From Pseudodesulfovibrio hydrargyri (GTDB lineage: Bacteria > Desulfobacterota > Desulfovibrionia > Desulfovibrionales > Desulfovibrionaceae), in the NCBI RefSeq assembly GCF_001874525.1, contig NZ_LKAQ01000001.1, positions 917,956 through 981,955 of the forward strand: a DNA stretch of 64,000 nt, read 5' to 3'. Position 1 is the first letter of the stretch, and each line of letters opens with the position of its first letter. Below the pieces are notes generated by a model. It was given only the letters and a program-made list of their open reading frames with translations, had not been told where the DNA came from and ran no database searches. This document shows positions 26,629 to 64,000 of this stretch, one piece after another. Made by a program: the position numbers and the translations under genes.

Positions 26629-26662
26629 GATCCGTCACTCCTTGGCAATGTGTTGCCCGGCC

Positions 26663-29600
26663 CTAGGCCGGTTCCTCCAGGGCCGCGTCGATGACCGACA
26701 GCATCGGCCCGTCGTGGAACCCCTTGAGCACGGTGGCGCTGTTGGGACAGACCGCGGCGCACGCCCCGCACCCCTGGCAGAGGATCTCGTCCACCACGAT
26801 CCGTTCCTCGGCCATGTCCACGCTCCTGGCCCCGTAAGGGCAGGCGCCGACGCAGGCCTGGCACAGGGAGCACAGGGAGTCGCGCACCGTGGCCACCACG
26901 GTCTCTCGAGGAATCTTTTCGGCGTTCAGGATGCGCAGGGCCCGCTGGGCCGCCGCCTTGGCCGAGGCCACGGTCTCGCGCATGCGCCGGGGCCCCAGGG
27001 CGATGCCGCACAGGTAGATGCCCTGCTTGAGGAAATCCACAGGCCGCCACTTGAAGTCCGCCTCGCGGTAGAAGCCGTCCTGGTCGATCTCCACGTCGAA
27101 GACCTCGAGCAGGTCCTCCACGTCGTTGGGCTCGATGCCGCTGGCGAGCGACAGGATGTCCGGCCGCAGCTCGATCTGTTCGCGCAGGATGGGGTCGAAG
27201 CCCCGGACCACGGGCTTGCCGTCCTCGAAGGTCACCTGGGGCGAGGTCAGGTCGTCGTAGCGGATGAAGATCGCCCCGGCCTTGCGCGCTTGGGTGTAGT
27301 AGGTCTCCAGGAACCCCTGGGTCATGATGTCCCGGTAGAAGACGTAGACGGGCAGGTCCGGGTTGCGCCCCTTGAGGGCGAGCACGTTCTTGAGCATCTC
27401 CGGGCAGCAGACCTTGCTGCAATAGGTCCGGTCCTGGCCGGGGTTTCGCCAGCACTGGATCATGACCACGGACGACAACCCCTTGGCGTCGAGCTGGCCG
27501 GTGGCCAGCTGCTCCTCCAGGGTCAGGTGGGTCATGACCGGCTTGTGCACGCACAGCCCGGACTCGTAGACCTTGGCCTCGTGCCCGCCGGTGGCCAGGA
27601 TGGTCACCCCGTGCTCCAGGGGGAAGACCCCCATGGGGCTGGCGATGGCCGAGCGGAAGTGTCCGGCGCGGCCCCGGGACAGAACCACCCGCGCCTCCTT
27701 GAAGACCTTGATGTTCGGGTGCTTCTCCACCTGGGCGATGAGCTCCTCCATGTAGGCGCGCGGGTCCGTGCCGTCCAGCTGGGTATGCAGCCGCATGGCC
27801 GTGCCGCCGAGCGACTCCTCGGCCTCCACCAGGCAGACCCCGTACCCCTGGTCCGCGATGGACATGGCCGCGACCATGCCGGCCAGGCCGCCGCCGACCA
27901 CCAGGGCCGAGCGGACCACGTCCACGGTCACGGCCTGGCCGGACGGGTCCGCGCCCTGCAACCGGGCCACGGCCGTGGCCAGGGAGGAGTATATCTCGCG
28001 CGCGGTGCGCCCGTTCCCGTTGCCGTCGCCGCCCACGGTGGCGGTGTAGATGTCGACCACGTCCATGAGCGCGGGGTTCAGGCCGATGGTCCGGCCCAGC
28101 TCCTTGAGCCTGGGGATGTAGGCGTACGGCATGCACGCCCCGATGAGCACGCGGTTGGGCTTGTACTCCATGGCCGCCGCCTCGATGTCCTTCCAGCCCT
28201 GCGGGGTGCAGGCGCTGCCCACGCGCATGACCTTGCAGACCGAGTGGACCCTCTGCATGCGATCGGCCAGCGCGTCCAGGTCCACGGCCTGTTCCAGGGT
28301 CGGGCAGGAGGTGCAGATGGTCACCAGCGTCCGCGCCGGGTCCCTGGACACGTCCGGGTATTCCGGCTCGGGCTCGGCCTCGATGCCCGCCAGGACGTCG
28401 TAGGCCTTGATGATCCTGGACGCGGCCTGGGCCGCGGCCCCGGCGTGGATGACCGACTCGGAGATGTCGCGCGGCTCGCCGCAGGCGCCCGCCGCAAACA
28501 CGCCCACCCGGCTGGTCCGCTCGGGCCGGTACGGCAGGGTGTCCACGAAGCCCCACTCGTTCAGGTCCACGCCCATGGTCAGGGCGAACTTGTCCATGCC
28601 CCTGGGCGGCCGCGCCCCGGCGGCCAGGACGACCATGTCGTATTCCTCGGCGACCAGTTCGCCCGCGTCGGTCAGGTATTCCAGCCTCAGCCCCCGGCCG
28701 TCGTCGGTCGGCTGAATGGAGTGCGGGCGGCTGCGCACGAAACGCACGCCGTATTCCTTCTCCGCGTTGGCCCGGTAGCGCTGGTACTCCTTGCCCGAGG
28801 TGCGCATGTCCATGTAGAAGATGGAGGTCTCGGCCTCCCCGCCCGTGGCCCGCTTGGCCAACAGCGCCTCCTTGATGGAGAACATGCAGCATACCCCGGA
28901 GCAGAAATCGGCGTTCTTGTGCGCGTCGCGCGAGCCCACGCACTGAATCCAGGCGATGCGCCCGGCCTTTTCGCCGTCGGGCCGCCGCAGTTCGCCGCCC
29001 GTGGGCCCGGTGCCCGAGAGCAGCCGCTCGAACTCCACGGCGGTAAGCACGCCGGGATGACGGTAGTTCCAGATGTCCGCCCCGCCCTCGGGGTCCATGT
29101 CCGGGCTGTAGCAGTCGAAGCCCCCGGCCAGGACCACGGCCCCGACCTCGAGCTTGTCCGTGCGGTCGGACAGAATGCGCACGTAGAGCTTGTCCAGCCA
29201 GGGCACGAAGGCCTTGCCCGCGAGCGGCTTGACCAGGTATTCGCGCGCGCCCTGCATGACCAGGTTCCCGGCCTGCTCCACGGCCTCCGCATCGGCCAGA
29301 ACCACCACGGGCAGGTCGGGCCGCAGCTCCCTGGCCCGGGTCAGGACCCGTTCGGCGTCCATGTCGTCCAGGCCCATGCCCACCAGGAGCAGCCCGACCG
29401 GTTCGTCCGTGGCGAGCATGTCCACGGCCTCGCGCCCGGACTCGGTGAAGTGCAGCGGGAAGTTCTGCTCTCTAAGCTCCTTCTCCATCATCGCTTTGAC
29501 CTCGGGGTCGCGGTCGGCCACCAGGATGTGGAACTCCTTGCGCTCCTCGAACTTGAAGTCGATGGCACCGGTGGGGCAGGCCTCGAAGCACTTCCAACAG

Positions 29601-30097
29601 CGGATGCAGTTGTCCAGGTCGAGCACGTAGTGGTTGGGGATGGCGTGGGGCACGGGCAGGTGGACCGCCGTGCGCTCGGTCAGCCCGGCGTTGAACTCGC
29701 TGGGCACGCGCACCGGGCAGACCTCGGCGCACTTGCCGCAGCTGATGCACTTGGCCGGGTCGATAAGCGTGGACTTGCGCTTGAGCGAGACCAGGAACTT
29801 GCCGGGCTCGCCCTCCATGGTCTCCACCTCGGTGGACAGCATGATGTCGATGTTGTCGTGGAACAGCCCCTTGCGCAGGCAGAACTGGCTGGAGGAGTCG
29901 CGCGACATCAGCGGGAGCATGCGGCACATGCCGCAGTGGTCCGAAGGGAACTGGTGGTCCAGTTGGCTGAGGATGCCGCCGTGGCTGGGCCTGCGGTCGA
30001 TGAGCGCCACCTTGTGCCCGGTGACGGCCAGGTCCAGGGCCGCGCGGATGCCGCCGATGCCCGCCCCGACCACCAATGCGCCGTATTGCTTTCTCAT
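26663..30097 (-). CDS. Giant double HdrA-like flavoprotein with an embedded pseudo-receiver domain
   Basis: 1144 residues. Unit 1: FAD site GAGIGGIRAALDL (11-23), cysteines near 55-73, and two ferredoxin motifs CISCGKCAEVCP (117-128) and CIRCWKCFEACP (164-175). Residues 189-310 then form a CheY-like domain inserted before unit 1 resumes (VVLAGGFDCYSP). Its acidic pair is D195/R196, the phosphoacceptor position is G240 in LLLVGMGLDDMD, and the lysine K290 is kept, so it is unlikely to be phosphorylated. Unit 2 is a complete HdrA: an N-terminal Cys domain, a second FAD site (VVGGGLAGMVAAMS, about 725), and C-terminal ferredoxin motifs from C1076. It lies between the FrhB-like gene and hdrC. Probable electron-bifurcating core; the role of the insert is unknown. 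Confidence 0.85.
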   Translation of the reverse strand: MRKQYGALVVGAGIGGIRAALDLAVTGHKVALIDRRPSHGGILSQLDHQFPSDHCGMCRMLPLMSRDSSSQFCLRKGLFHDNIDIMLSTEVETMEGEPGKFLVSLKRKSTLIDPAKCISCGKCAEVCPVRVPSEFNAGLTERTAVHLPVPHAIPNHYVLDLDNCIRCWKCFEACPTGAIDFKFEERKEFHILVADRDPEVKAMMEKELREQNFPLHFTESGREAVDMLATDEPVGLLLVGMGLDDMDAERVLTRARELRPDLPVVVLADAEAVEQAGNLVMQGAREYLVKPLAGKAFVPWLDKLYVRILSDRTDKLEVGAVVLAGGFDCYSPDMDPEGGADIWNYRHPGVLTAVEFERLLSGTGPTGGELRRPDGEKAGRIAWIQCVGSRDAHKNADFCSGVCCMFSIKEALLAKRATGGEAETSIFYMDMRTSGKEYQRYRANAEKEYGVRFVRSRPHSIQPTDDGRGLRLEYLTDAGELVAEEYDMVVLAAGARPPRGMDKFALTMGVDLNEWGFVDTLPYRPERTSRVGVFAAGACGEPRDISESVIHAGAAAQAASRIIKAYDVLAGIEAEPEPEYPDVSRDPARTLVTICTSCPTLEQAVDLDALADRMQRVHSVCKVMRVGSACTPQGWKDIEAAAMEYKPNRVLIGACMPYAYIPRLKELGRTIGLNPALMDVVDIYTATVGGDGNGNGRTAREIYSSLATAVARLQGADPSGQAVTVDVVRSALVVGGGLAGMVAAMSIADQGYGVCLVEAEESLGGTAMRLHTQLDGTDPRAYMEELIAQVEKHPNIKVFKEARVVLSRGRAGHFRSAIASPMGVFPLEHGVTILATGGHEAKVYESGLCVHKPVMTHLTLEEQLATGQLDAKGLSSVVMIQCWRNPGQDRTYCSKVCCPEMLKNVLALKGRNPDLPVYVFYRDIMTQGFLETYYTQARKAGAIFIRYDDLTSPQVTFEDGKPVVRGFDPILREQIELRPDILSLASGIEPNDVEDLLEVFDVEIDQDGFYREADFKWRPVDFLKQGIYLCGIALGPRRMRETVASAKAAAQRALRILNAEKIPRETVVATVRDSLCSLCQACVGACPYGARSVDMAEERIVVDEILCQGCGACAAVCPNSATVLKGFHDGPMLSVIDAALEEPA

Positions 30098-30137
30098 GTC
30101 TCTCCTCCCCTGTGTCGGGCCGTCAATCGTGCGATGA

Positions 30138-31265
30138 TCAGGCCATGTGCGAAACCGCGTCCTGGAACTCGTCTTCCTTGAAGACCGACAACGGCGGCGG
30201 TTCGTCCAGGCTGCGGCCCGGCACGTAGTCGAAACTCTCCTGGGTGCGCGCGGCCACGGTGCGGAACAGCTCCATGACCGGGATGTCGTTGGGGCAGGCG
30301 TTTGAGCACTGGCCGCAGCCCACGCAGGCCATGGACATGTGGGCCATGCGCGTCAGGTGGTAGAAGACCGTGTCCGTGGGCATCTTGAGCGCCCCCTTGC
30401 GCTTGGCCCAGCCCATGTACTGCCACGGCTTGTGCTCGAACACGTCGGTGTTGAAGACGCACTCCTTGCAGTAGCAAACCGGGCAGGCCACCCGGCAGTT
30501 GTAGCAGTTGACGCAGGACGAGAGATACTCGGACAGGTCGGTCAGGGTGCCGGTGGCCGCCCGGGTGCGTTCGAACATCGCGTCCCGGCTGGCCGTGCGC
30601 ACCTGGACCATGGCCTTCAACGCCTCGGCGCGGCCGCCCGCCTCGGCCTCGGACAGCCCCAGGCCGAGGAGCAGGGATTCGCCGCGCGGGCTGGCGGCCA
30701 TGACCGGGATGTGCCCGGACAGGTCGGCCCCGGCCAGGCCGAGAACGATGTCCGCGTTCTCCGGGGCCGGGTGCTCGCAGGCCATGCAGGCCGGGGCGAT
30801 CTCGGCCCCGCCGTCGCCGACCCGCTTGTGGAAGTCCAGGGTGGACTCGAACGGGTCGCGGTCGCCGCGAAACGCCTTGTAGCCGACGTTGTCAAAGGCC
30901 CCCATGCAGTCCAGGCCGACCAGGATGACGTCGTCGATGCTCCCCTGGTTGAGCTTGACCAACTCGACAAAGGCGCGGATCTCGCACGGCCGCATGACCG
31001 CCGCGATGCGCTCGCCCGCCTGGCCCCGGGTCAGCCGGGCCAGGAGCTTGGCGCTGTTCATGGGAAAGGCCGGGGCCAGCGGGTCCGCCCCGGAGAGCTG
31101 GGCCGGGTCGGTCACCAGGGTCGGCATGGGCATGCCCTTGCCGAACAGGTGCATGGGCACCAGCACGCCGCCGATATCCTCGCTTTCCATCAACCCGCGC
31201 AAAAACTCCTGCACCGCCGCGATCGGGTTGCCCCCGTCGATCCGAATCATTGCCGTGGTAGCCAT
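30138..31265 (-). CDS. FrhB/FdhB-like flavin and iron-sulfur subunit
   Basis: 375 residues. The centre resembles the coenzyme F420 hydrogenase / formate dehydrogenase beta family (AAVMRPCEIRAFVELVKLNQ, VILVGLDCMGAFDN), which binds FAD and passes electrons to or from F420 or NAD(P). The C-terminal part has ferredoxin-type cysteines CVNCYNCRVACPVCYCKEC and CVGCGQCSNACPNDIP. In the operon it follows mvhD by 17 bases and precedes the double HdrA by 40. It is the likely electron entry module, feeding from formate, F420H2 or NAD(P)H into MvhD and HdrA. The donor cannot be read from the sequence. Confidence 0.8.
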   Translation of the reverse strand: MATTAMIRIDGGNPIAAVQEFLRGLMESEDIGGVLVPMHLFGKGMPMPTLVTDPAQLSGADPLAPAFPMNSAKLLARLTRGQAGERIAAVMRPCEIRAFVELVKLNQGSIDDVILVGLDCMGAFDNVGYKAFRGDRDPFESTLDFHKRVGDGGAEIAPACMACEHPAPENADIVLGLAGADLSGHIPVMAASPRGESLLLGLGLSEAEAGGRAEALKAMVQVRTASRDAMFERTRAATGTLTDLSEYLSSCVNCYNCRVACPVCYCKECVFNTDVFEHKPWQYMGWAKRKGALKMPTDTVFYHLTRMAHMSMACVGCGQCSNACPNDIPVMELFRTVAARTQESFDYVPGRSLDEPPPLSVFKEDEFQDAVSHMA

Positions 31266-31282
31266 GTCACGCCTCCCGCGCC

Positions 31283-31708
31283 CTAGATCACGGCCATGGA
31301 ACGCGCTTCCATGGGGCCGAGCTCTCTGATTTCGTTGATGAAGTTATTGACCGTCGCGGCGAATTCATTGCCTTCGCTCGCCCCCACCCAGGTCAGCTTG
31401 ACCCGCCCCTTCTCGATGCCGAACTGGGGCAGGATCTCGTTCAGGAGCTTGACCCGCCGCCTCGCCTTGTAGTTGCCGTTGATGTAGTGGCAGTCGCCCG
31501 GGTGGCAGCCCGAGACGAGCACCCCGTCCGCTCCGGAGAGCAGGGACTTGACGATGTACTTGGGGTCCACCATGCCGGTGCACATCATGCGCACCATGCG
31601 CAGGTTGGGCTGCTGGATCATCCGCGAGGTCCCGGCCAGGTCCGCGGCCGTGAAGGTGCACCAGTTGCAGACAAAGGCCAGAATGGTCGGTTCGAACTCG
31701 CTACTCAT
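31283..31708 (-). CDS. mvhD: MvhD-type hydrogenase/Hdr iron-sulfur delta subunit
   Basis: 141 residues, the usual length of MvhD/FlpD. Conserved cysteines are in AFVCNWCTFTAAD, VRMMCTGMVDP and SGCHPGDCHY, which hold a [2Fe-2S] cluster that passes electrons to HdrA. Its start overlaps the end of hdrA by 8 bases, so the two are coupled. In methanogens and other anaerobes the presence of MvhD beside HdrA marks flavin-based bifurcation complexes. No [NiFe]-hydrogenase large or small subunit is near. Confidence 0.92.
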   Translation of the reverse strand: MSSEFEPTILAFVCNWCTFTAADLAGTSRMIQQPNLRMVRMMCTGMVDPKYIVKSLLSGADGVLVSGCHPGDCHYINGNYKARRRVKLLNEILPQFGIEKGRVKLTWVGASEGNEFAATVNNFINEIRELGPMEARSMAVI

Positions 31709-48148: not shown

Positions 48149-48949
48149 TTATCGGGCCTGTTTCGGAGAACGCGCCTGGCCCGCCAACCGCCCGGCCTCC
48201 CCGCCCGGCGCGAGCGCCAGGGCGTCGTCCACCTTGAGATCCACGCCGGACACCGAACGCCTGAACGCCTCGCTCATGAGCGCGCACAGGGTCCGGGCGG
48301 CCTCCGCATACCCCAGTCCGGCGGGCCGGATGTTGGAGATGCAGTTCCGGGCTTCGTCCGTGGTATCAGATTTCGGGCCGTATGTCATATAAATGCCCAT
48401 GCTGTCCGGGGAGCTCAGACCGGGCCGCTCGCCGATGAGGACCACGGCCATGCGGGCCCCAAGGGCCAGGGCCACGCGGTCGCCCAGGGCCACCCTGCCC
48501 TGCTCGGCGAAGCACGGCGGAGCCGCGCTCAGGCCGAGCCCTTCGAGCGCGGGCGCGAACTCCCGCCAGAAGGGCGCGAAATTCCTTTCCACGGCCGTGG
48601 ACGACAGCCCGGCCGAAACCGTGAAGGCCACGTCGAACCCGTTGCCCGCGCGGGCGGCGAGCATGGCCTCGCTCTCCCGGGCGAGCAGCCGCCCGAGGTC
48701 GGGCCGTTGCAGGAAGACCGCCCGGTCCGGGGCCCGGCTTTCCACTTCCAGAAACTCGATGTCGCCGAAGGTTGCCCGGCGGTCCGGCTGCTGGTGCACC
48801 GCGTCCCGCGCCCGGGCGTGGTCCAGCTGGAAGGCGAGCACGTCGCGGGTGCGCTGGCTGACCCCGGCCCGGCCGAGCGCGATGCGCGCGTCGGTCCAGG
48901 TGCGCAGCCCGGCCCAGAAGTCCTCGGCCACCAGATCGTCAGGTTTCAT
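48149..48949 (-). CDS. eutC: Ethanolamine ammonia-lyase small subunit
   Basis: 266 residues, normal for EutC. Conserved blocks TDARIALGRAGVSQRTRDVLAFQLDHARARDAVH, DVAFTVSAGLSSTAVERN, RVALGDRVALALGARMAVVLIGERPGLSSPDSMGIYMTYGPK and EARNCISNIRPAGLGYAEAA are clear, including the adenosylcobalamin-binding region. It forms the heteromeric enzyme with EutB that cleaves ethanolamine to acetaldehyde and ammonia. It starts 22 bases after eutB with a poor ribosome site, suggesting coupling. No microcompartment shell genes or EutA reactivase are in the window. Confidence 0.95.
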   Translation of the reverse strand: MKPDDLVAEDFWAGLRTWTDARIALGRAGVSQRTRDVLAFQLDHARARDAVHQQPDRRATFGDIEFLEVESRAPDRAVFLQRPDLGRLLARESEAMLAARAGNGFDVAFTVSAGLSSTAVERNFAPFWREFAPALEGLGLSAAPPCFAEQGRVALGDRVALALGARMAVVLIGERPGLSSPDSMGIYMTYGPKSDTTDEARNCISNIRPAGLGYAEAARTLCALMSEAFRRSVSGVDLKVDDALALAPGGEAGRLAGQARSPKQAR

Positions 48950-48971
48950 GTCGACGACGGGATGCTTGGTT

Positions 48972-50360
48972 TTAGGAAGACAGGCCACGGAACCGCTCCT
49001 TGTCGGGAATGTGCAGGGAATGTTTCGGGGCCTTGAGTTGGCCGTCCTTGAACACGCCGGTGCGCTCCAGCCAGGCCGCGAACTCCGGGGCCGGGGAAAG
49101 GCCGAGCTGGCGGCGGACATACAGGGCGTCGTGGAAGGAGGTGGATTGATAATTGAGCATGATGTCGTCCGCCCCGGGCACGCCCATGATGAAATTGCAT
49201 CCGGCCACGCCGAGCAGGGTCAGCAGGGTGTCCATGGAATCCTGGTCCGCCTCGGCGTGGTTGGTGTAGCAGACGTCCATGCCCATGGGCACGCCGAGCA
49301 GCTTGCCGCAGAAATGGTCCTCCAGACCGGCCCGGATGATCTGCTTTTCGTCGTAGAGATACTCCGGGCCGATGAAGCCGACCACGGAATTGAGCAGAAA
49401 CGGCTCGTAGCGCCGGGCCAGGCCGTAGGCCCGCGCCTCCAGGGTCTGCTGGTCCACCCCGCAGTGCGCCCCGGCGGACAGGGCCGAGCCCTGGCCGGTC
49501 TCGAAATACATGACGTTGTCGCCCACCGTGCCGCGTTTCAAGGACCGCCCGGCCTCGAGCCCCTCGCGCAGGACTTCCAGGGTCACGCCGAAGCTTTTGT
49601 TCACGCCCTCGGTGCCGCCGATGGACTGGAAGACCAGGTCCACGGGAGCGCCCCGCTCCACGGCCTGAATGGTGTTGGTCACGTGGGTCAGCACGCAGGA
49701 CTGGGTGGGGATGTCGTATTCCCGGCGCAACCGGTCGAGCAGCTCCATGAGCCGCATGGCCGAGGCCGTGCTGTCCGTGGCCGGGTTGATGCCGATGCAG
49801 GCGTCCCCGCTGCCGTACATGAGCCCGTCGAAGACCGAGGCCACGATGCCCGCCGGGTCGTCGGTCGGGTGGTTGGGCTGCAGCCGCGCGGCCAGGGTGC
49901 CGGGCAGGCCGACCGTGGTCCGGAATTGGGTGACCACGCGGACCTTGGAGGCCACATGGATGAGATCCTGGACGCGCATAAGCTTGGACACGGCGGCGGC
50001 CATCTCGGGCATGAGCCCCGGGGCCAGGGCGGCGAGCGCGTCCCCGTCCGCCTCGGCCGAGAGCAGCCAGTCGCGGAACCCGCCCACGGTCAGCCCGGCC
50101 ACGGGCTTGAAAGCCTCGCGGTCCAGTGTGTCGACGATCAGCCGGGTCACGGCGTCGTCCTCGTAGGAGATGACCAGGTCTTCCAGAAAGGCGGCCAGCG
50201 GGACCTCGGCCAGGCAGAGCTGGGCCACGGCCCGCTCGCGGGCCGAACGCGCCCCGATCCCGGCCAGTTCATCCCCGGATTTGGGCGCGGAGGCGACGGC
50301 CAGCAGGGTGCGCAGGTCCGCGTACTCTTGGGTCACGCTGTCTATGGTGATGGCATACAT
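48972..50360 (-). CDS. eutB: Ethanolamine ammonia-lyase large subunit
   Basis: 462 residues from ATG 50360 (MYAITID); an upstream in-frame ATG at 50438 gives a non-conserved extension through the operator region and is rejected. Active-site segments include VTQFRTTVGLPGTLAARLQPNHPTDD, GDACIGINPATDS, FQSIGGTEGVNKSFGV, YFETGQGSALSAGAH and GVPMGMDVCYTNHAEADQDS. It is the catalytic partner of EutC in a coenzyme B12-dependent radical reaction in the cytoplasm. It leads the eut-transporter-GDPD group. Two tandem 18-bp repeats 54-89 bases upstream look like operators. Confidence 0.95.
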   Translation of the reverse strand: MYAITIDSVTQEYADLRTLLAVASAPKSGDELAGIGARSARERAVAQLCLAEVPLAAFLEDLVISYEDDAVTRLIVDTLDREAFKPVAGLTVGGFRDWLLSAEADGDALAALAPGLMPEMAAAVSKLMRVQDLIHVASKVRVVTQFRTTVGLPGTLAARLQPNHPTDDPAGIVASVFDGLMYGSGDACIGINPATDSTASAMRLMELLDRLRREYDIPTQSCVLTHVTNTIQAVERGAPVDLVFQSIGGTEGVNKSFGVTLEVLREGLEAGRSLKRGTVGDNVMYFETGQGSALSAGAHCGVDQQTLEARAYGLARRYEPFLLNSVVGFIGPEYLYDEKQIIRAGLEDHFCGKLLGVPMGMDVCYTNHAEADQDSMDTLLTLLGVAGCNFIMGVPGADDIMLNYQSTSFHDALYVRRQLGLSPAPEFAAWLERTGVFKDGQLKAPKHSLHIPDKERFRGLSS

Positions 50361-50413
50361 GGCGGCACGGGGTTCAGGGTTGCATGAAAAGGGCCACGGG
50401 CTCGAAGGGCTTG

Positions 50414-50449
50414 GTTCCATTTGCGAAAACCGTTCCACTTGCGGAACGC
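50414..50449 (-). promoter_or_regulatory. Two tandem 18-bp operator-like repeats upstream of eutB
   Basis: GTTCCATTTGCGAAAACC followed directly by GTTCCACTTGCGGAACGC; the shared core is GTTCCA(T/C)TTGCG(A/G)AA. The second unit is itself a palindrome (TTCC-N6-GGAA). The form resembles IclR-family binding sites. It lies 54-89 bases before the eutB start, in promoter position. No regulator gene is adjacent. Confidence 0.6.
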
Positions 50450-55771: not shown

Positions 55772-55774
55772 GTG
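55760..55774 (+). promoter_or_regulatory. Ribosome-binding site that sets a GTG start for fwdD
   Basis: AAGGAGG at 55760-55766 is followed after 5 bases by GTG at 55772. An in-frame ATG at 55748 has no comparable site and would place this Shine-Dalgarno sequence inside the gene. The GTG start gives a protein beginning at GSISGLLVTV, the start of the FwdD fold. Confidence 0.65.
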
Positions 55775-56155
55775 GGCAGCATTTCAGGTCTGTTAGTGAC
55801 GGTCCGAACCGCCAAACAGGGCTCGGAGATGGTCACCAGCAAGCATGGGGCGCCATACCTTGCCGAGATATCCACCCTGCGCATCCACCCGGACGACCTC
55901 AGCGCCGTGGGCGTGGAGGATGGGGGTCCGGCCGTGCTGGCCAGCCCGCACGGCGAGGTGCGCGTCACCTGCAAGGGCACCGACGTGCCCAAGGGGCTCT
56001 TCTTCCTGCCGCTCGGGCCGGTGGCCAACACCCTCTTCAGCGCGTGGAGCACCGAGGAATCGGGCGTGCCCAACTGGAAGAGGATCAACGTGTCGCTGAC
56101 CCCCTGCGACGAGACGGCCGAAGCGGACAACACCGGCCAAGGAGCGGAGCGATGA
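55772..56155 (+). CDS. fwdD: Formylmethanofuran dehydrogenase subunit D (molybdopterin-dinucleotide-binding)
   Basis: 127 residues, matching the length of stand-alone archaeal FwdD/FmdD, which forms the C-terminal pterin-binding beta-barrel of molybdopterin oxidoreductases. Visible: LLVTVRTAKQGSEMVTSKHGAPYLAEISTLRIHPDDLSAVGVEDGGPAVLASPHGEVRVTC, the usual dinucleotide-binding strand order. It overlaps fwdB by 4 bases (ATGA). Methylotroph FhcABCD complexes have no D subunit, so its presence points to a cofactor-bearing, redox-active enzyme. The start is GTG by the ribosome site. Confidence 0.85.
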   Translation: MGSISGLLVTVRTAKQGSEMVTSKHGAPYLAEISTLRIHPDDLSAVGVEDGGPAVLASPHGEVRVTCKGTDVPKGLFFLPLGPVANTLFSAWSTEESGVPNWKRINVSLTPCDETAEADNTGQGAER

Positions 56156-57444
56156 CGACTCACGACAACGTGGTCTGCACCTTTTGCGGCTGCCTCTGCG
56201 ACGACATAGAGGTGGAGGTGCGGGACAATACCATAACGGCGGTCAAGAAGGCTTGCGCCATCGGCAAGAACAAGATCATGCACGCCACCTCCGATCCCCC
56301 GCCGATCTCCGTGCGCGGGGTCGAGACCTCGGTGGACGAGGCCGTTGAGGAGGCCGTGCGGATCATGAGCACGGCCCGCAATCCCATGGTCTACGGGATG
56401 AGCAGCACCACCTCCGAGGCCCAGCGGGAGATGGTCGAGATCGCCGAGATCACCGGCGCCAACCTGGACAACTGTTCCTCCTACTGTCACGGGCCGGGCG
56501 TGCTCGCCCGCCAGCAGGTGGGGTTGGTCTCCTGCTCCCTGGGCGAGGCCAAGAACCGCGCGGACCTGGTCATCTACTGGGGCTGCAATCCGGTGGAGGC
56601 GCACATGCGCCACCTGTCCCGCTACTCCCTGCAACCCAAGGGGCTGTTCATGCCCGAGGGGCGCAAGGGACGCAAGGTCGTGGCCATCGACGTCCGCCCC
56701 ACGCCGACCACCAAGCGGGCCGACGTCTTCCTCCAGGTCCAACCCGGCCACACCTTCGAGATCGCCTCGGTCCTGCGCGCCCTGCTCAACGGCGTGGAGC
56801 TGGACTTCCCGGACGGCGCCGATTCCGTCGCGGGCGTGCCGGTGGAAGCCTGGCGCGAGGTCGTGGAGATGGTCAAAAAATGCAAGTACGGCGTGCTCTT
56901 CTTCGGCCTGGGCGTGACCCAGTGCCGGAACACGGACATCAACGTCGAGCAGGTCGCCCGGCTGGTCCAGGACGCCAACCGGCACACCCGGTTCTCGGCC
57001 GTGGCCATGCGCGGGCACGGCAACGTCAACGGCACCAACCAGGTCATGAGCTGGCTGACCGGCTATCCCCTGGCCGTGAACTTCAGCAGGGGCTTCCCCC
57101 GGCACAATCCCGGGGAATTCAGCGTGGTGCCCATGCTGGCGCGCAAGGAGATCGACGCGGCCCTGATCGTGGCCACCGACCCCGGCGCGCACCTGCCCAA
57201 GGACGCGGTGGACTTTCTCAAGACCATCCCGGTCATCCACCTCGACCCGCACCGCAACATGACCACGCCTTGGGCCACGGTGGTCATCCCCGTGGCCCCG
57301 GTGGGCGTGGCCGCGACCGGCACCTTCTACCGCATGGACAACGTCCCCCTGCGCCTGAAAAAGCTGGTGGACTCCCCCTTCCCCACGGACGAGGAGGTCC
57401 TGAAAACCATGAAGGAGAAGATCGCTTATGCTGCGAATAACTAA
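56152..57444 (+). CDS. fwdB: Formylmethanofuran dehydrogenase subunit B, catalytic (Mo/W)
   Basis: 430 residues, the archaeal FwdB length. Molybdopterin oxidoreductase fold with N-terminal [4Fe-4S] cysteines C9, C12, C16 (VCTFCGCLCDD) and C35. The motif YCHGPGVL at 111-118 supplies C112, equivalent to the cysteine that ligates tungsten or molybdenum in methanogen FwdB. Pterin-binding regions (IYWGCNPVEAHMRH, AIDVRPTPTTKRADVFLQVQPG, MRGHGNVNGTNQVMSWLTGYP, VATDPGAHLP) are complete. It reduces CO2 to formate at a buried Mo/W site or runs in reverse. The methylotroph FhcB is reported to lack the cluster and cofactor, unlike this protein. It overlaps fwdA by 17 bases. Confidence 0.93.
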   Translation: MTTHDNVVCTFCGCLCDDIEVEVRDNTITAVKKACAIGKNKIMHATSDPPPISVRGVETSVDEAVEEAVRIMSTARNPMVYGMSSTTSEAQREMVEIAEITGANLDNCSSYCHGPGVLARQQVGLVSCSLGEAKNRADLVIYWGCNPVEAHMRHLSRYSLQPKGLFMPEGRKGRKVVAIDVRPTPTTKRADVFLQVQPGHTFEIASVLRALLNGVELDFPDGADSVAGVPVEAWREVVEMVKKCKYGVLFFGLGVTQCRNTDINVEQVARLVQDANRHTRFSAVAMRGHGNVNGTNQVMSWLTGYPLAVNFSRGFPRHNPGEFSVVPMLARKEIDAALIVATDPGAHLPKDAVDFLKTIPVIHLDPHRNMTTPWATVVIPVAPVGVAATGTFYRMDNVPLRLKKLVDSPFPTDEEVLKTMKEKIAYAANN

Positions 57445-59080
57445 CGGCCAAGTCCACGACCCGGCCAACGGCCTGAGCGGCGAGGTGCGGGACGTGATCA
57501 TTGACGGCGGGACCATCGTCTCCGCCGAAGGGCTCCCGCAGGCGCAGCTCGACGAGATGGAGACCATCGACGCAACCGGCTGCGTGGTCATGCCCGGCGG
57601 CGTGGACATCCACAGCCATATCGCCGGGGCCAAGGTCAACAGCGGGCGCATCCTCTGCCCCGAGGAGCACGGCAGCCACGTATCGGCCCGGACTGCGATC
57701 ACGCGGGCCGGGTGCGGCCTGACCGTGCCCACCACCCACCGCACCGGCTACCTCTATTCCAAGCTCGGCTACACCACCGCCTTCGAGGCCGCGGTGCCGC
57801 CGCTCGAGGCCCGGCACGCCCACGAGGAGTTGCAGGACCTGCCCATGCTGGACAAGGGCTGCTACACGGTCATGGGCAACAACCACCTGGTCATGCAGGT
57901 CCTGAGCGACAGCGACCCGGTGCGCCGCAAGGAGCGGCTGCGCGATCTGGTCTCCTGGCTGCTCAAGGCCAGCCGGGGCTACGCCGTGAAGGTCGTCAAC
58001 CCCGGCGGCGTGGAGGACTGGAAGTGGAACACGGGCGCGGCCGACCTGGACATCCCCACCCCGCCCTTCGGGGTGACGCCCAGGCAGATCATCTCGGCCC
58101 TGGCCGAGACGGTTGACGACCTCAAGCTGCCCCATTCCATGCACCTGCACTGCAACCATCTGGGCGAGCCCGGCAACCTGGCCACCACCTTGGCGACCAT
58201 GCGCAACCTGGAGGGGCACCGGGCCCACTTCACCCACCTGCAGTTCCACTCCTACGGCAAGACGCCCAAGGGCGGATTCACCTCGGGCGCGGCGGAGATG
58301 GCCGAGTACTTCAACCGGCATCCCGAGTTCACATGCGACGTGGGCCAGATCGTCTTCGGCCCCACCCTGACCATGACCTCGGACGCGCCCATGGAGTTTC
58401 ATCTGCACCAGATGCGCAAGGCCAAGTGGGCCAGCGGCGACATCGAGATGGAGAGCGGGTCGGGCGTGGTGCCCATGACCTACAGCCCCGGCGTGCTGGT
58501 CAACGCCATCCAGTGGGCCGTGGGACTCGAGCTCCTGCTGCTGATCAAGAACCCCTGGCAGATCATCCTGACCACGGACCACCCCAACGCGGGCCCGTTC
58601 ACGGCCTACCCGGAGATCATCAAGCTGCTCATGGACGCGGACTACCGCAACTCCTGGCTGGAGAAGCTCCACCCCAAGGTCCGGCGGTACACCTGCCTGT
58701 TCGACCTCAACCGCGAATACACCTTCGACGAGATCGCGGTCATCACCCGTTCCGGCCCGGCCCGGGCCCTGGGCCTGGCGAACAAGGGCCACATCGGGGC
58801 GGGCGCCGAGGCCGACGTGGCCATCTACCGTATAGGCGACGACAAGCGGGCCATGTTCAACGCACCGGCTTACGTCCTCAAGCAGGGCGAGGTGGTCGTG
58901 CGCGACGGCGAGATCGTCCGGACCGTACAGGGCAGGACCCTGGGCGTCTCCCCGGAAGGGGGCGAGCGGCTGGACGACGAACTGACCGAGACCTTTGACG
59001 GCTACTACACGGTCAGGCTGGCGAACTACATGGTGGAAGACGAATATCTGGACCGGCCGGAGGTTGTCCCATGCGGATAA
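57428..59080 (+). CDS. fwdA: Formylmethanofuran dehydrogenase subunit A (dinuclear zinc amidohydrolase)
   Basis: 550 residues. Amidohydrolase barrel with H62 and H64 in GGVDIHSHIAGAKVNSGR, the probable carbamylated lysine in YAVKVVNPGG, histidines in LHLHCNHLGEPGN and HFTHLQFHSYG, and the metal-site Asp in TTDHPNAGPF. In Fwd this subunit condenses formate, channelled from FwdB, with methanofuran; in methylotrophs it hydrolyses formyl-methanofuran. It is translationally coupled to fwdB (17-base overlap) and ftr (10-base overlap). Confidence 0.94.
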   Translation: MLRITNGQVHDPANGLSGEVRDVIIDGGTIVSAEGLPQAQLDEMETIDATGCVVMPGGVDIHSHIAGAKVNSGRILCPEEHGSHVSARTAITRAGCGLTVPTTHRTGYLYSKLGYTTAFEAAVPPLEARHAHEELQDLPMLDKGCYTVMGNNHLVMQVLSDSDPVRRKERLRDLVSWLLKASRGYAVKVVNPGGVEDWKWNTGAADLDIPTPPFGVTPRQIISALAETVDDLKLPHSMHLHCNHLGEPGNLATTLATMRNLEGHRAHFTHLQFHSYGKTPKGGFTSGAAEMAEYFNRHPEFTCDVGQIVFGPTLTMTSDAPMEFHLHQMRKAKWASGDIEMESGSGVVPMTYSPGVLVNAIQWAVGLELLLLIKNPWQIILTTDHPNAGPFTAYPEIIKLLMDADYRNSWLEKLHPKVRRYTCLFDLNREYTFDEIAVITRSGPARALGLANKGHIGAGAEADVAIYRIGDDKRAMFNAPAYVLKQGEVVVRDGEIVRTVQGRTLGVSPEGGERLDDELTETFDGYYTVRLANYMVEDEYLDRPEVVPCG

Positions 59081-59970
59081 ACAACGTTGAGATCGTGGAC
59101 ACCTTCGCCGAGGCCTTTCCCATGGCCGCCGTGCGGGTGACCATCACGGCGAAGAATGAGAAATGGGCCATGCAGGCGGCCCTGGCCGCCACCGGGTTCG
59201 CCACCTCGGTCATCGGCTGTGGCATCGAGGCGGACATCGACGGCCCCTCGCCGAGCACCCCGGACGGCCGTCCGGGCGTGGACTGCCTGTTCTTCGGCAT
59301 GTCCACGGACGCCCTGGAAAAGCAGATGCTCAAGCGTATCGGCCAGGCGATCATGACCACCCCGACCACCGCCTGTTTCGACGGAGGCCTGGCCGAGTGC
59401 CCGGCGGACGAGCGCAAGCCCCTGAAGCTGGGCGGCAAGATCCGCTTCTTCGGCGACGGGTTCCAGGCCAGCAAGATCATCGGCGACGAGCGCTATTGGC
59501 GCATCCCGGTCATGGAGGGCGAGTTCCTGATCCAGGAGTCGTTCTCCACGGCCAAGGGCATCGGCGGCGGCAACTTCATGATCCTGGCCGAGTCCGACGA
59601 CGCGGCCCTCACTGCGGCCGAGGCCGCGGTGGAGCGCATGCGCGAGGTGCGCGGCGTGGCCCTGCCCTTCCCGGGCGGGATCGTGCGCAGCGGAAGCCAG
59701 GTGGGGTCCAAGTACGCCTTCCTGCCCGCTTCCACCAACATCGCCTTCTGCCCGACCATCCGCAGCCGTGTGCCGCAGACCGTGCTCCCGCCCGGGACCA
59801 ACTCGGTCATGGAGGTGGTCATCGACGCCCTGACTTACGCCCAGGTGGCCGAGGCGACCCGGGTCGGCATCGAGGCGGCCTGCCTCCCCGGCGTGCTCCA
59901 GATCACCGCCGGAAACTACGGCGGCAAGCTCGGCAAGCACCACTTCCACCTCCGGGAGCTGCTCGGATGA
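59071..59970 (+). CDS. ftr: Formylmethanofuran:tetrahydromethanopterin formyltransferase
   Basis: 299 residues, the length of archaeal Ftr and methylotroph FhcD. Conserved stretches: NNVEIVDTFAEAFPMAAVRVTITAKNEKWAMQAALAATGFATSVIGCGIEADID, QAIMTTPTTACFDGG, GEFLIQESFSTAKGIGGGNFMI, and SKYAFLPASTNIAFCPTIR. It moves the formyl group between methanofuran and H4MPT. Its presence inside the operon implies that the host makes methanofuran- and H4MPT-type carriers. The start overlaps fwdA by 10 bases. Confidence 0.95.
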   Translation: MRINNVEIVDTFAEAFPMAAVRVTITAKNEKWAMQAALAATGFATSVIGCGIEADIDGPSPSTPDGRPGVDCLFFGMSTDALEKQMLKRIGQAIMTTPTTACFDGGLAECPADERKPLKLGGKIRFFGDGFQASKIIGDERYWRIPVMEGEFLIQESFSTAKGIGGGNFMILAESDDAALTAAEAAVERMREVRGVALPFPGGIVRSGSQVGSKYAFLPASTNIAFCPTIRSRVPQTVLPPGTNSVMEVVIDALTYAQVAEATRVGIEAACLPGVLQITAGNYGGKLGKHHFHLRELLG

Positions 59971-60008
59971 CGGGACACGCCAAACAACCACAAGGAACTG
60001 GAGCCAAT

Positions 60009-60860
60009 ATGAACACGAGGGTTTACCTGACTCTGCGCACGGCCCCGGCCATGCCCGTGGAGGCGGAGTCCCTGCTTCCCGAAAACGTCACGGGCAAAAG
60101 CGCGGAGGAAATCGAATCCCTGCCCCTGCAGGTGGGCAACCGCACGGAACCGGTCGGCGACCATTTCCGGGTGGAGATACACGAAGGCCGGTCCGGCGGG
60201 CCGGATGAAGGCGCCGCCGCCCTGGAACTGACCGGCGACCTGACCCGGTTCAAGCGGCTGGGCGAAGGCATGTCCCGAGGGTCCCTGACCGTGAACGGCA
60301 CGGTCGGCTTCCACGCGGGCGCGCGCATGAGCGGCGGCACGCTGACCATCAACGGCAACGCCGGGGACTACCTGGGGGCCATGATGACCGGCGGAAGGAT
60401 CACGGTCCACGGCAATGCCGGGCACTTCGCGGGCTCGGCCTACCGGGGCTTTTTCCGGGGCATGTCCGGCGGCTCGATCCTGGTGCTCGGCAACGCGGGC
60501 AACCTGACCGGAGCGCGCATGCGCCGGGGCATGATCGCGGTGCGCGGCACCTGCGGCGACCTGGCCGGATACGCCATGGGCGCGGGCACCGTGCTCATCG
60601 GCGGCCGGGCCGGGGTCCGGGCGGGCGCGAACATGGTCCGGGGGACCGTGATCCTGCTCACGCCCCCGGAGGAGATGCCGCCCACCTTCCGCTACGACTA
60701 CACCGGGCTGCCGCCGTTCTGGCCGCTCATGCACGCCTCCCTGTCCGAGGCGGGCTGGACCGCGCCCGAGGCCGAGGCCCGGGCCGAGTTCAAGCGCTAC
60801 AGCGGCGACTTCAACGAGGGCGGACGCGGGGAACTGCTGCTGCTCTCCGGGGCGGCCTGA
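60009..60860 (+). CDS. fwdC: Formylmethanofuran dehydrogenase subunit C
   Basis: 283 residues from ATG 60009 (GGAG 5 bases before); an in-frame ATG at 59967 overlaps the ftr stop but adds non-conserved residues. The start VYLTLRTAPAMPVEAESLLPENVTGKSAEEIESLPLQVGN is family-typical. It is followed by a left-handed beta-helix of Gly-rich repeats (GSLTVNGTVGFHAGARMSGGTLTINGNAGDYLGAMMTGG, and so on), as in FwdC and the GltB C-terminal domain. It scaffolds FwdA and FwdB. Last gene of the operon; a strong terminator follows. No FwdF/FwdG polyferredoxin is encoded here. Confidence 0.94.
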   Translation: MNTRVYLTLRTAPAMPVEAESLLPENVTGKSAEEIESLPLQVGNRTEPVGDHFRVEIHEGRSGGPDEGAAALELTGDLTRFKRLGEGMSRGSLTVNGTVGFHAGARMSGGTLTINGNAGDYLGAMMTGGRITVHGNAGHFAGSAYRGFFRGMSGGSILVLGNAGNLTGARMRRGMIAVRGTCGDLAGYAMGAGTVLIGGRAGVRAGANMVRGTVILLTPPEEMPPTFRYDYTGLPPFWPLMHASLSEAGWTAPEAEARAEFKRYSGDFNEGGRGELLLLSGAA

Positions 60861-61050: not shown

Positions 61051-61935
61051 CTACCAGCGGGCCAGCAACGCGGGCACGGTCTCGGGCGTCTCGTACGAAA
61101 GGAGCAGGGCGAACAGGGCCCCGGCCATGATATCCGCCGTGGTGCCGGGGTTGTAAAGCCGTTTCTCGTCGCGGGTCAATCGGTCGAAGCGTTCCACGGC
61201 CCGACGCCCCTGTTCGCTGAACACCCCGCCCAGCCCGAGCGCCTCGGCGGCCTGGGCCGAGATGGAGCGGGCCGTGTCCGTGTCGGTCTTGCGGGCGATG
61301 TCCGTGTCGGGCACCGAGGCCAGAATGGTCAGATAGGTCTGGATCACGGCCTGGGACAGGCTCGCCCCCTCGTCGAGCAGCCGCTTCAGCCCGGCGCGCC
61401 CTTCGAAGACCAGCTCGAAATCCGTGACGTACTGCGCGGCCAGGGTGTCCCTGTCCCGGGCCAGTCCCATGGCCTCGCGCAGGGTGATGGTCACCTCGGT
61501 GTCGCGGATGTCCCCCTCCTCCACCGTGTCCATGCCGTGGGGCGCGGCCTTGACGATGGACGCGAACGCCAGGCGGGAGTCCTCCACCGTGAGTCCCGCC
61601 AGGACCCGGCGCAGGGACGCGCGCAGCTCGGACGATCCTCCCAGGGCGGCCGCCTTGGCCAAGGGAGCGAGCATGAGCAGGATGCCCACGTTGGTGTTCA
61701 CCCCGGCCAGGGTCTTGGTGTGGTCCGCGCCGTCACGGATCATCTCCCCCACCGAGGCGGCGGAGGCCGAAGAGAAGGCCGGGCCGATGGCCGCCGCGCT
61801 GACCAGAAAATGCTCCAGACGCAGGCCCGAGCAGTCCCGGGTCCGGGTCACGTTGCCCGGCTTCTCGGCCAGGACCTCGAAAATACAGGCTATCTGGGCG
61901 GCCCAGGATATCCATCGATCACTGCATGGGGGCAT
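61051..61935 (-). CDS. CitG/MdcB-like triphosphoribosyl-dephospho-CoA synthase family protein
   Basis: 294 residues from ATG 61935, which has AAGGAG six bases upstream; a longer frame to 62010 is rejected. Family features: ACIFEVLAEKPGNVTRTRDCSGLRLEHFLVSAAAIGPAF, GVNTNVGILLMLAPLAKAA, and TPGTTADIMAG-like NPGTTADIMAGALFALLL near the C-terminus. CitG makes a CoA-derived prosthetic group for citrate lyase, but no citrate or malonate lyase genes are here. CitG-like genes also occur in H4MPT/methanofuran gene clusters of methylotrophs (from memory), so a role in making a C1-carrier is more likely. It is convergent with fwdC. Confidence 0.78.
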   Translation of the reverse strand: MPPCSDRWISWAAQIACIFEVLAEKPGNVTRTRDCSGLRLEHFLVSAAAIGPAFSSASAASVGEMIRDGADHTKTLAGVNTNVGILLMLAPLAKAAALGGSSELRASLRRVLAGLTVEDSRLAFASIVKAAPHGMDTVEEGDIRDTEVTITLREAMGLARDRDTLAAQYVTDFELVFEGRAGLKRLLDEGASLSQAVIQTYLTILASVPDTDIARKTDTDTARSISAQAAEALGLGGVFSEQGRRAVERFDRLTRDEKRLYNPGTTADIMAGALFALLLSYETPETVPALLARW

Positions 61936-62003
61936 GAAATCTCCTTGCTCCGGCGACACGCCGCCGTTTTTCAGGCCCGGAACATGACAGATCGCCGAGA
62001 GTT

Positions 62004-62027
62004 GCGTCAAGACGACGGGATTGACGC
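62004..62027. promoter_or_regulatory. Inverted repeat GCGTCAA-N10-TTGACGC
   Basis: Perfect 7-bp arms in the divergent space between the CitG-like gene and the symporter. The right arm contains TTGACG, a possible -35 for the symporter leader, so it may be an operator. Confidence 0.4.
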
Positions 62028-62177: not shown

Positions 62178-63779
62178 ATGCTGGGCAAACTGCTCGTCCT
62201 TGTCACCTACATCGCCGCCATGCTCGGGCTCGGGCTGTACATCCGGGGCCGGGTCCAGGACTCGCCCGCCGAATATTTCCTGGCCGGGCGCAGGCTCGGG
62301 CTGTTCGTCCTGCTCGGCTCCATGGCGGCCACCAACTTCAGCGCCTTCACCGTGTTCGGGGCCTCGGGCGCGGGCTACCTGCACGGGCTGGCCTTCTTCC
62401 CGATCATGGGCTTCGGCACCGGGTTCATGGCCCTGACCTTCTGGCTCATCGGCAAACGCGTCAACCGGCTGGGCAGGCTCCACGAACTGGTCACGCCCTC
62501 GGAACTGGTCCAGCACCGCTACGGCAGCCGCCCCCTGTCCGGCCTGTTCGCCCTGGTCATGGTCGTCTTCACCATCCCCTACCTGGCCCTGCAGCCCATG
62601 GCCGGCGGCTACGTGCTCAACCAGCTGGTCGGGCTACCCCAGGCGGCGGGCGCGGGCATCGTCACCCTGGTCATCCTGGCCTACACCCTGCGCGGCGGGC
62701 TGCGCTCCGTGGCCTGGACCGACACCCTCCAGGGGCTGATCATGATCGTCATGCTGGCCGCCGCCCTGGTCATGGCCGCCGAACACCACGGCGGGTTCGC
62801 CAGGGCCATGGGCAAAGCTCTCGAGGCCGACCCCGAGCTGTTCTCGCGCCCCGGCGGGCTGGGCCGGTTCGGGCCGGGCATCTGGCTGTCCTACATTCTG
62901 TTGTGGTTCTTCTGCGACCCCATGTTCCCGCAGCTCTTCCAGCGGTTCTACACGGCCCGCGACGAGAAGGCGTTGCAGCGGACCATGCTCCTCTACCCGC
63001 TCATCTGCACCGTGGTCTTCGCCATGCCCGTGCTCCTCGGCGTGCTCGGGCGGCTCGACTTCCCCGGCCTGCACGGCAAGGAGGCGGACGCCATCGTCCC
63101 CATGCTGATGACCTCGGTGGGCGGCGATTTCATGGGCGCGCTGGTCCTGACCGCCGGGCTGGCCGCCCTGATGTCGACCATGGATTCCCAGCTGCTGACC
63201 CTGTCCTCCATCTTCACCCGCGACGTGTATCCCTTCTTCACCGGCGGCCGGACCGGCTCGTCCACGGTGGGCCGCGTCTTCGTCTGCTGCCTGGCCGCGG
63301 CCGGATACGCCATGGCCGTGAACCCTCCGGGCAGCATCCTCAAGATCGCCACCCAGACCTTCACCGGCCTGGCCGTGCTCTTCCCGACCGTCTTCTGCGG
63401 CCTGTACCTGGAACGACCCCGCGCCCTGCCCGCCATCGTCTCCATCCTGGCGGGCGAGGCGGCCATGATCTGGTTCGCCCTGGCCGGGCCCGGCGACCTG
63501 TCGGTCCTGCCCGCCATCCCGGTCATGGGCGTGGCCTTCGGCACCTACATTCTGGTCCACCTGTTCAGCGGAGCCGGGTTCGCCTGGCAATGGTCCGGCG
63601 CGTCCCGCAAATGGGCGGCGGCCTTCGGCCTGCTCCTCCTGGCGGCCTGCGATTTCTGGCAATGGACCGACCGCACGCCCGTGTTCCTCGGCCTGCCGGG
63701 TTGGGTCTGGTATTTCGTGGGGTTGAGCGCCCTGCAGACTATTTTGATGTGGCGCATGTGCCGGGAGGAGAGCAGATAG
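62178..63779 (+). CDS. Sodium:solute symporter (SSS) family transporter
   Basis: 533-residue inner-membrane protein of about 13 segments. SSS motifs: EYFLAGRRLGLFVLLGSMAATNFSAFTVFGASGAGYLHGL (first inverted repeat, sodium-site Ser/Thr), RYGSRPLSGLFALVMVV, and the family signature region GGDFMGALVLTAGLAALMSTMDSQLLTLSSIFTRDVYPFF. Closest in style to the PanF/YodF-type branch. The ATG at 62178 follows CAGGGGGAAGATC. The gene sits behind a structured leader and terminator, suggesting attenuation. Substrate unknown; carboxylate or vitamin-like solutes are typical. Confidence 0.9.
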   Translation: MLGKLLVLVTYIAAMLGLGLYIRGRVQDSPAEYFLAGRRLGLFVLLGSMAATNFSAFTVFGASGAGYLHGLAFFPIMGFGTGFMALTFWLIGKRVNRLGRLHELVTPSELVQHRYGSRPLSGLFALVMVVFTIPYLALQPMAGGYVLNQLVGLPQAAGAGIVTLVILAYTLRGGLRSVAWTDTLQGLIMIVMLAAALVMAAEHHGGFARAMGKALEADPELFSRPGGLGRFGPGIWLSYILLWFFCDPMFPQLFQRFYTARDEKALQRTMLLYPLICTVVFAMPVLLGVLGRLDFPGLHGKEADAIVPMLMTSVGGDFMGALVLTAGLAALMSTMDSQLLTLSSIFTRDVYPFFTGGRTGSSTVGRVFVCCLAAAGYAMAVNPPGSILKIATQTFTGLAVLFPTVFCGLYLERPRALPAIVSILAGEAAMIWFALAGPGDLSVLPAIPVMGVAFGTYILVHLFSGAGFAWQWSGASRKWAAAFGLLLLAACDFWQWTDRTPVFLGLPGWVWYFVGLSALQTILMWRMCREESR

Positions 63780-64000
63780 TAACATGATAGTAGGAATCAA
63801 TACTATATTTGTCCGCCTCCATAACTTGCCATAACACCGGGCGGTTGGTGATGCAGTGGGGCCGAGAGGCCGGGAGGTTGTCTTGTTAAACGAGTAACCA
63901 AAAGCATACCTGGTTGACTAAAAATCTGAAAAATGCATTATACAAGGTGCCCATTGCCTTCACCGCTGCGTTCGATATGGCAACCTATATAGGATGTTAG
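63780..64000. other. AT-rich right edge, with a promoter-like sequence
   Basis: 221 bases after the symporter without a gene. GC content drops, and TTGACT (63915-63920), a 17-base spacer and ATTATA (63938-63943) form a sigma70-like promoter reading out of the window to the right. Confidence 0.4.

Follow-up and report, generated by a model that had tools for sequence, protein, structure and literature searches.

The chemistry of tetrahydromethanopterin (H4MPT) and methanofuran has long been associated with methanogens and methylotrophs, and redox-competent formylmethanofuran dehydrogenases (Fwd) of anaerobic bacteria are known from genomes. FwdB interconverts CO2 and formate at molybdenum or tungsten, FwdA couples the formate to methanofuran, Ftr passes the formyl group to H4MPT, and Mch and MtdB carry it on to methylene. 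Here we analyse a five-gene plus-strand run, fwdD-fwdB-fwdA-ftr-fwdC, at positions 55772-60860 of a 64,000-nucleotide stretch of Pseudodesulfovibrio hydrargyri DNA (the window). On balance we favour the view that it encodes a redox-competent FwdABCD with Ftr which, together with Mch and MtdB, would make up an entire branch from methylene-H4MPT to CO2 or back on home-made carriers, mostly oxidising one-carbon units to CO2.

The operon type is already known in other anaerobic bacteria, as excerpts of three papers attest (PMC7325909, PMC4807772, PMC10100899). An operon of Hakuba Actinobacteria resembles that of the window in its fwdDBA-ftr-fwdC order, in the absence of fwdE, fwdF and fwdG and in a FwdB with cluster and catalytic Cys; in the excerpt of that report, however, methanopterin-making genes are not seen and a Wood-Ljungdahl pathway is described, whereas the window organism has the cofactor genes and yielded no CdhD of the carbon monoxide dehydrogenase/acetyl-CoA synthase (CODH/ACS) type (PMC7325909). 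Planctomycete FmdDBAC operons share the D-B-A-C order and an exchange of selenocysteine (Sec) and Cys, but the excerpt reports that order without ftr and from a different phylum (PMC4807772). The Wood-Ljungdahl annotation of Ca. Formimonas leaves methanofuran and methanopterin unmentioned in the main text (PMC9768040). The archaeal FwdABCD(FG) enzymes (e.g. 5t5i, 8rja) have subunits A-D, active-site residues and full-length homology in common with the window, which differs in lacking F and G subunits in the operon, in carrying ftr inside it and in the bacterial clade to which it belongs. Methylotroph Fhc (6s6y) shares the B-A-Ftr-C order and the FwdA metal-site residues, but its B subunit has no C112-H113 and no FwdD is present in four annotated Fhc regions. 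What is new here is the occurrence in a genus of Desulfovibrionaceae that also has the cofactor genes, the rarity of the operon in that genus (three of 36 genomes) and hints of a cassette. Searches on Pseudodesulfovibrio with methanopterin, or on Desulfosporosinus with formylmethanofuran or methanopterin, gave no title or abstract opening on the operon, and none of the literature searched held a biochemical test of a redox-competent Fwd from anaerobic bacteria. Its occurrence in a Desulfovibrionaceae genus, Desulfosporosinus and Halanaerobium makes direction, metal and electron partner testable outside methanogens.

Below, G000 is the assembly carrying the window, G158 and G163 are genus-mates, L-numbers are individual loci and C1-C5-style names are contigs; family-level counts refer to 149 genomes and genus-level counts to 36. 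The related loci used for codon, tree and synteny work are the best 80 of 382, and give a partial picture.

The operon and the FwdB active site

Neighbouring genes overlap by 4 (fwdD/fwdB), 17 (fwdB/fwdA) and 10 bases (fwdA/ftr), with a gap of 38 bases between ftr and fwdC (Table 1). The gene order and span given by the earlier, sequence-only reading hold to the exact base, and four of the five products pass their own NCBIfam cut-offs: FwdB (TIGR03129, 531 bits, cut-off 328), FwdA (TIGR03121, 739 bits, cut-off 393), Ftr (TIGR03119, 401 bits, cut-off 293, with Pfam FTR and FTR_C also matched) and FwdC (TIGR03122, 265 bits, cut-off 131). The five-gene arrangement is real, not chance. FwdD is above cut-off only for Pfam Molydop_binding (46.8 bits, cut-off 26.8) and scores 54 bits against the methanogen FwdD model of NCBIfam, below its cut-off of 175; this Pfam match and those to four solved FwdD chains (2ki8, 8rja_D, 9sfi_S, 5t5i_D) bear out the separate FwdD that had been proposed.

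FwdB matches 8rja_B, 5t5i_B, 9sfi_Q, 9sw6_J and 7bkb_H over almost its entire length in phmmer searches, while FhcB (6s6y_B) aligns with it at residues 244-392 only (E 1.5e-14). The window row was aligned with 71 Fwd-type rows and five Fhc-type rows, the latter from plasmids, after exclusion of ten of 87 FwdB rows with an open frame below 380 residues, most of which carry TGA. H113 and H289 occur in all 71 Fwd rows, and C112 and R287 in 70 (the exception for C112 being L046); none of the four occurs in any Fhc row. The cysteines C9, C12, C16, C35 and C112 are as the sequence-only reading stated, but its contrast with FhcB, said to lack both cluster and cofactor, holds in part: C112-H113 is missing from all five Fhc rows, whereas the four cluster cysteines are kept in all five, as in the 71 Fwd rows. 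These comparisons support the assignment of FwdB to the redox-competent Fwd type.

It could still be argued that the complex works as an Fhc-type formyl hydrolase, with formate released by FwdA and FwdB serving as a scaffold. The A-ftr-C order is that of Fhc loci, and FwdA, which matches solved FwdA chains over its full length, keeps H62, H64, K188, H239, H241, H270 and D384, a binuclear metal site type whose residues are common to Fwd and Fhc in our conservation table. We consider this very unlikely, given the Fwd-type residues C112-H113, R287 and H289, an encoded FwdD, the TGA/Cys exchange at position 112 and a 77-row FwdB tree in which the five Fhc rows are set apart by a branch of length 2.71 (support 100/100). 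The hydrolase was rejected on C112-H113, FwdD and the tree; window FwdB does not align as FhcB.

Table 1. Positions in the window of the fwd operon, its metal-ligand codon and the convergent neighbour
Feature	Position	Strand	Product or remark
fwdD	55772..56155	+	127 aa, molybdopterin-dinucleotide-binding subunit; GTG start after AAGGAGG
fwdB	56152..57444	+	430 aa, catalytic subunit; C9/C12/C16/C35 [4Fe-4S] set, C112-H113-G-P Mo/W ligand motif
C112 codon of fwdB	56485..56487	+	TGT
fwdA	57428..59080	+	550 aa, amidohydrolase subunit
ftr	59071..59970	+	299 aa, formylmethanofuran:H4MPT formyltransferase
fwdC	60009..60860	+	283 aa, GXGXG subunit
CitG-family gene	61051..62010	-	triphosphoribosyl-dephospho-CoA synthase fold; convergent with fwdC; Pfam CitG 203 bits

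Carrier genes, partners and direction

The last base of the window is also the last of contig C1 (981,955 bp) in a five-contig assembly, and the remaining genes of the pathway lie on contig C2 (15,610 bp). Above cut-off on C2 are FolK-MptA, FwdC, Mch, TIGR03123, 4HFCP_synth, Mpt_N and MptG. Its gene content comprises folK-mptA, PTPS-like and DHPS-like genes, a second fwdC, mch, genes like mptN, mfnD, mfnF and mfnE, mfnB and mptG, besides genes for a flavoprotein, an HxlR regulator, a second ATP-grasp protein and an Mpt_N (MtdB-type) protein; no Pfam family matched the gene that lies between mptG and mfnB. Sub-cut-off matches were obtained for the models of MptN (225 bits, cut-off 350), MfnD (82, cut-off 400), MfnE (130, cut-off 300), PTPS (76, cut-off 125.5) and MfnF (192, cut-off 520), the last protein also scoring 300 against 244 for TIGR03123. 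The proposal of H4MPT-type carriers is thus upheld by mch, mtdB, mptA, mptG and methanofuran-type genes, several recognised only by matches below cut-off, and neither of the two results that the sequence-only reading had named as refuting it was obtained. The second fwdC-like gene (L030 3351-4208) adjoins mch in both G000 and G158.

As C2 was assembled on its own and breaks off abruptly at its ends, and some of its genes fit host codon usage worse (0.87-0.98, against at least 0.913 for single host genes), it might be contamination, leaving the organism with Fwd and Ftr and an incomplete pathway. We find this scarcely credible. C2 Mch is sister to the Mch of G158 and G163, in G158 the same genes sit on the fwd contig, pooled C2 codon usage correlates at 0.985 with that of 51 window and flank genes (GC 0.68), and the assembly is 100% complete and 0.84% contaminated. 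In G158 a stretch of about 26 kb holds fwdDBA-ftr-fwdC, citG, mtdB, an ATP-grasp gene, a cytochrome and Rnf set, a dmrA-like gene, mptG, mfnB, mfnE, mfnF, mfnD, mptN, mch, a second fwdC and a partial DHPS-like gene. At the end of the window, about 276 bases (63721-64000) recur inverted (98%) at the start of contig C4 (L034), an assembly-breaking repeat.

Within the family these genes are scarce. Mch was found in one of the 149 genomes (G000), and is present also in the genus-mates G158 and G163; FwdB is above cut-off in one, with weaker matches in 125 of the kind other molybdopterin enzymes give. FwdA-like matches occur in nine of the genus genomes, at full length and at least 81% identity only in G000, G158 and G163, the other six having short amidohydrolase stretches only. 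Matches of at least 60 bits in the DNA around 52 bacterial loci, many of which end at contig edges, place near fwd an ftr (45), mch (35), mtdB (38), mptN (37) and citG (25), and 21 loci have fwdD, ftr, mch and mtdB all together; named Desulfosporosinus and Halanaerobium strains carry the same operon type. These counts indicate that a methylene-H4MPT-to-CO2 branch with an MtdB of the NAD(P) type is a widespread anaerobic bacterial cluster. The single MtdB query used gave no match in any of 28 archaeal loci.

The sequence itself shows the genes, active-site residues, cofactor genes and absences; from these we infer which metal is loaded, what the carriers are, where the electrons go, which way the branch runs and what feeds it with one-carbon units. 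The core would be FwdABCD, with Mo or W and a [4Fe-4S] cluster in FwdB and an amidohydrolase site in FwdA, and Mch and the NAD(P)-type MtdB of C2 would complete the branch between methylene-H4MPT and CO2. The carriers, presumably of the H4MPT and methanofuran types, would be made by the organism itself. One-carbon units may enter as methylene-H4MPT, for example by free formaldehyde reacting with the carrier; the MtdB step would yield NAD(P)H and the FwdB step low-potential electrons, passed, at a guess, to ferredoxin. The oxidative direction is favoured on two grounds: the search turned up no acetyl-CoA end, and MtdB belongs to the NAD(P) type, as in oxidising methylotrophs. The earlier description of a redox-active enzyme that reduces CO2 or produces formate is retained as to redox competence and modified as to direction, which cannot be read from sequence and for which one-carbon oxidation is preferred.

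The main competing explanation is that the same enzyme runs reductively, from CO2 to methylene-H4MPT, for serine and glycine or other biosynthesis. The sequence leaves the direction undecided, archaeal Fwd is reversible, and Fae is missing, but no CODH/ACS acceptor was found and NAD(P)-type MtdB accompanies 38 of the 52 bacterial loci but none of the 28 archaeal ones (a zero that applies to this query alone). We regard reductive use as rather unlikely. PF03599 searches for a CODH/ACS-type CdhD returned nothing in G000 except an HgcA frame, the remaining CODH/ACS subunits not having been searched for; lacking such an acetyl-CoA-forming end, the genes make a branch, not a Wood-Ljungdahl pathway. 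That frame (L159; G000 C1:638129-638482 and around) is HgcA-like, 359 residues long with NVWCAAGK, an HgcA motif, and just behind it a ferredoxin-like frame begins. Mercury methylation by the organism is thus possible.

Several points weigh against the favoured reading. Neither Fae nor MttB gave a match in G000 (MttB was found in one of the 36 genus genomes), and with both missing no one-carbon source is identified; F420-dependent Mtd likewise gave none in G000, and all three routes were set aside. A reductive, assimilatory use may still apply, Mer, MetF and serine hydroxymethyltransferase lying outside the scope of the genome searches. Within the operon, the only part of the genome examined for it, there is no ferredoxin subunit FwdF or FwdG, and the three copies in G000 of Rnf, a ferredoxin-coupled complex, lie away from fwd. 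Finally, the predicted FwdB model is weak (mean predicted local distance difference test score 71.9, below 50 in the segment 108-132 that contains C112), its nearest folds being 8rja and 5t5 at template modelling scores of 0.75-0.76, with FhcB at 0.54.

In G158 an extra, third Rnf copy sits inside the H4MPT/fwd cluster, which fits ferredoxin as acceptor in the oxidative branch. This copy best matches the G000 copy at C4:1768502 (76.6% over 2,702 bases), which is itself closer to another G158 copy (78.5% over 2,817 bases). A general linkage of Rnf to fwd was rejected, being seen in G158 and not in G000. The in-cluster set (L131) also encodes a multihaem cytochrome, and its RnfB carries a fused GltD-like domain. 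On the minus strand of the window, 24 kb from fwd, HdrB-, HdrC-, HdrA- and MvhD-like genes and one for a 375-residue Fe-S protein (25139-31708) form a possible electron partner.

Selenocysteine, ancestry and a possible cassette

At the place of the C112 codon TGA stands in nine of the 80 related loci, eight bacterial (L038, L042, L043, L044, L045, L051, L053, L115) and one archaeal (L113, Methanothermococcus), and a Cys codon in 69; the sequence of L041 ends before the site. These codons are best read as apparent Sec, and their alignment with C112 would mark this position as the metal-binding active site. Sec-FmdB is described in bacteria (planctomycete; excerpt of PMC4807772), and for methanogenic archaea FwdB is listed among the Sec families (excerpt of PMC13188914). 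A hairpin-forming stretch 3' of the codon is present in four folded Sec loci and also in the window. On a 29-row tree the Sec/Cys state requires four changes, at least three of them on starred branches. Two of 17 molybdopterin-family matches in G000 have an in-frame TGA and, if those are Sec, the Cys form of FwdB does not follow simply from absent Sec coding. In the remaining locus, L046, from a Desulfosporosinus metagenome-assembled genome, the codon is AGA (Arg); either this FwdB is non-catalytic or the sequence contains an error. A gene for FdhD, a formate-dehydrogenase cofactor factor, adjoins the fwd genes of L038, which speaks for the redox-competent reading.

A single branch of the FwdB tree, with support 89/94 and recovered in 99% of the 200 bootstrap trees, separates archaeal from bacterial Fwd rows. 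Window FwdB groups with G158 and then with L039 and L040, within a ten-row bacterial clade (99/100) that also holds Desulfosporosinus, Peptococcaceae and Synergistaceae rows, and the Ftr tree agrees (15-row clade, support 100). Of the archaeal type once claimed, homology to archaeal Fwd remains, but its FwdB falls within a bacterial clade and the enzyme is not a fresh archaeal import. An origin of FwdB in archaea followed by transfer to bacteria, with 149 bacterial members, is described in the excerpt of PMC10100899.

Mean identities, over comparison sets picked after trees and loci had been seen and with L038-L040 and other loci excluded, are higher to a Bacillota/Synergistota set than to a second bacterial set for FwdB (60.8%, n=11, against 49.1%, n=19), FwdA (63.1%, n=11, against 50.1%, n=19), Ftr (64.3%, n=10, against 55.7%, n=18) and FwdC (50.2%, n=10, against 39.7%, n=18). 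The order is reversed for MtdB (46.8% against 55.5%), the DHPS-like protein (44.0% against 50.6%), MptN (46.3% against 51.4%) and the second FwdC (38.4% against 42.3%), and near even for Mch (48.7% against 50.6%). In L039 the Fwd genes resemble those of the window, with Mch and Ftr close to Desulfocapsa. These patterns hint at a Fwd core that travels as a cassette apart from the H4MPT genes. The Mch tree fails as proof of a separate history: in the approximately unbiased test grouping with Bacillota copies was not rejected (p 0.128; with delta copies p 0.451), and cassette exchange therefore remains a hint. A bolder proposal, tentative and one we lean against, is that fwdDBA, ftr and fwdC form a mobile cassette that took the place of the older Fwd core in a deltaproteobacterial H4MPT cluster, leaving the second FwdC as an orphan, and that would now serve as the CO2-forming, ferredoxin-reducing end of Fae-less one-carbon oxidation in anaerobic respirers, switching between Sec and Cys at the metal ligand.

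Neighbouring genes

The CitG-family gene beyond fwdC recurs beside mch/mptN and fwd in clusters of bacteria and of archaea, six of the 28 archaeal loci among them. DUF2193 genes lie in or adjoin the fwd/H4MPT cluster in L043 (1193-2674), L045 (1426-2895) and L064 (5966-7453), and neighbour it in Desulfosporosinus, Formimonas and Halanaerobium; an aquaporin-family-like gene follows in L043 and L045 (Pfam MIP for L045). DUF2193 is possibly an unknown one-carbon protein, and was rejected as a required partner because G000 and G158 lack it. Upstream of the operon, window 48149-50438 encodes ethanolamine ammonia-lyase EutB, followed by a likely EutC.

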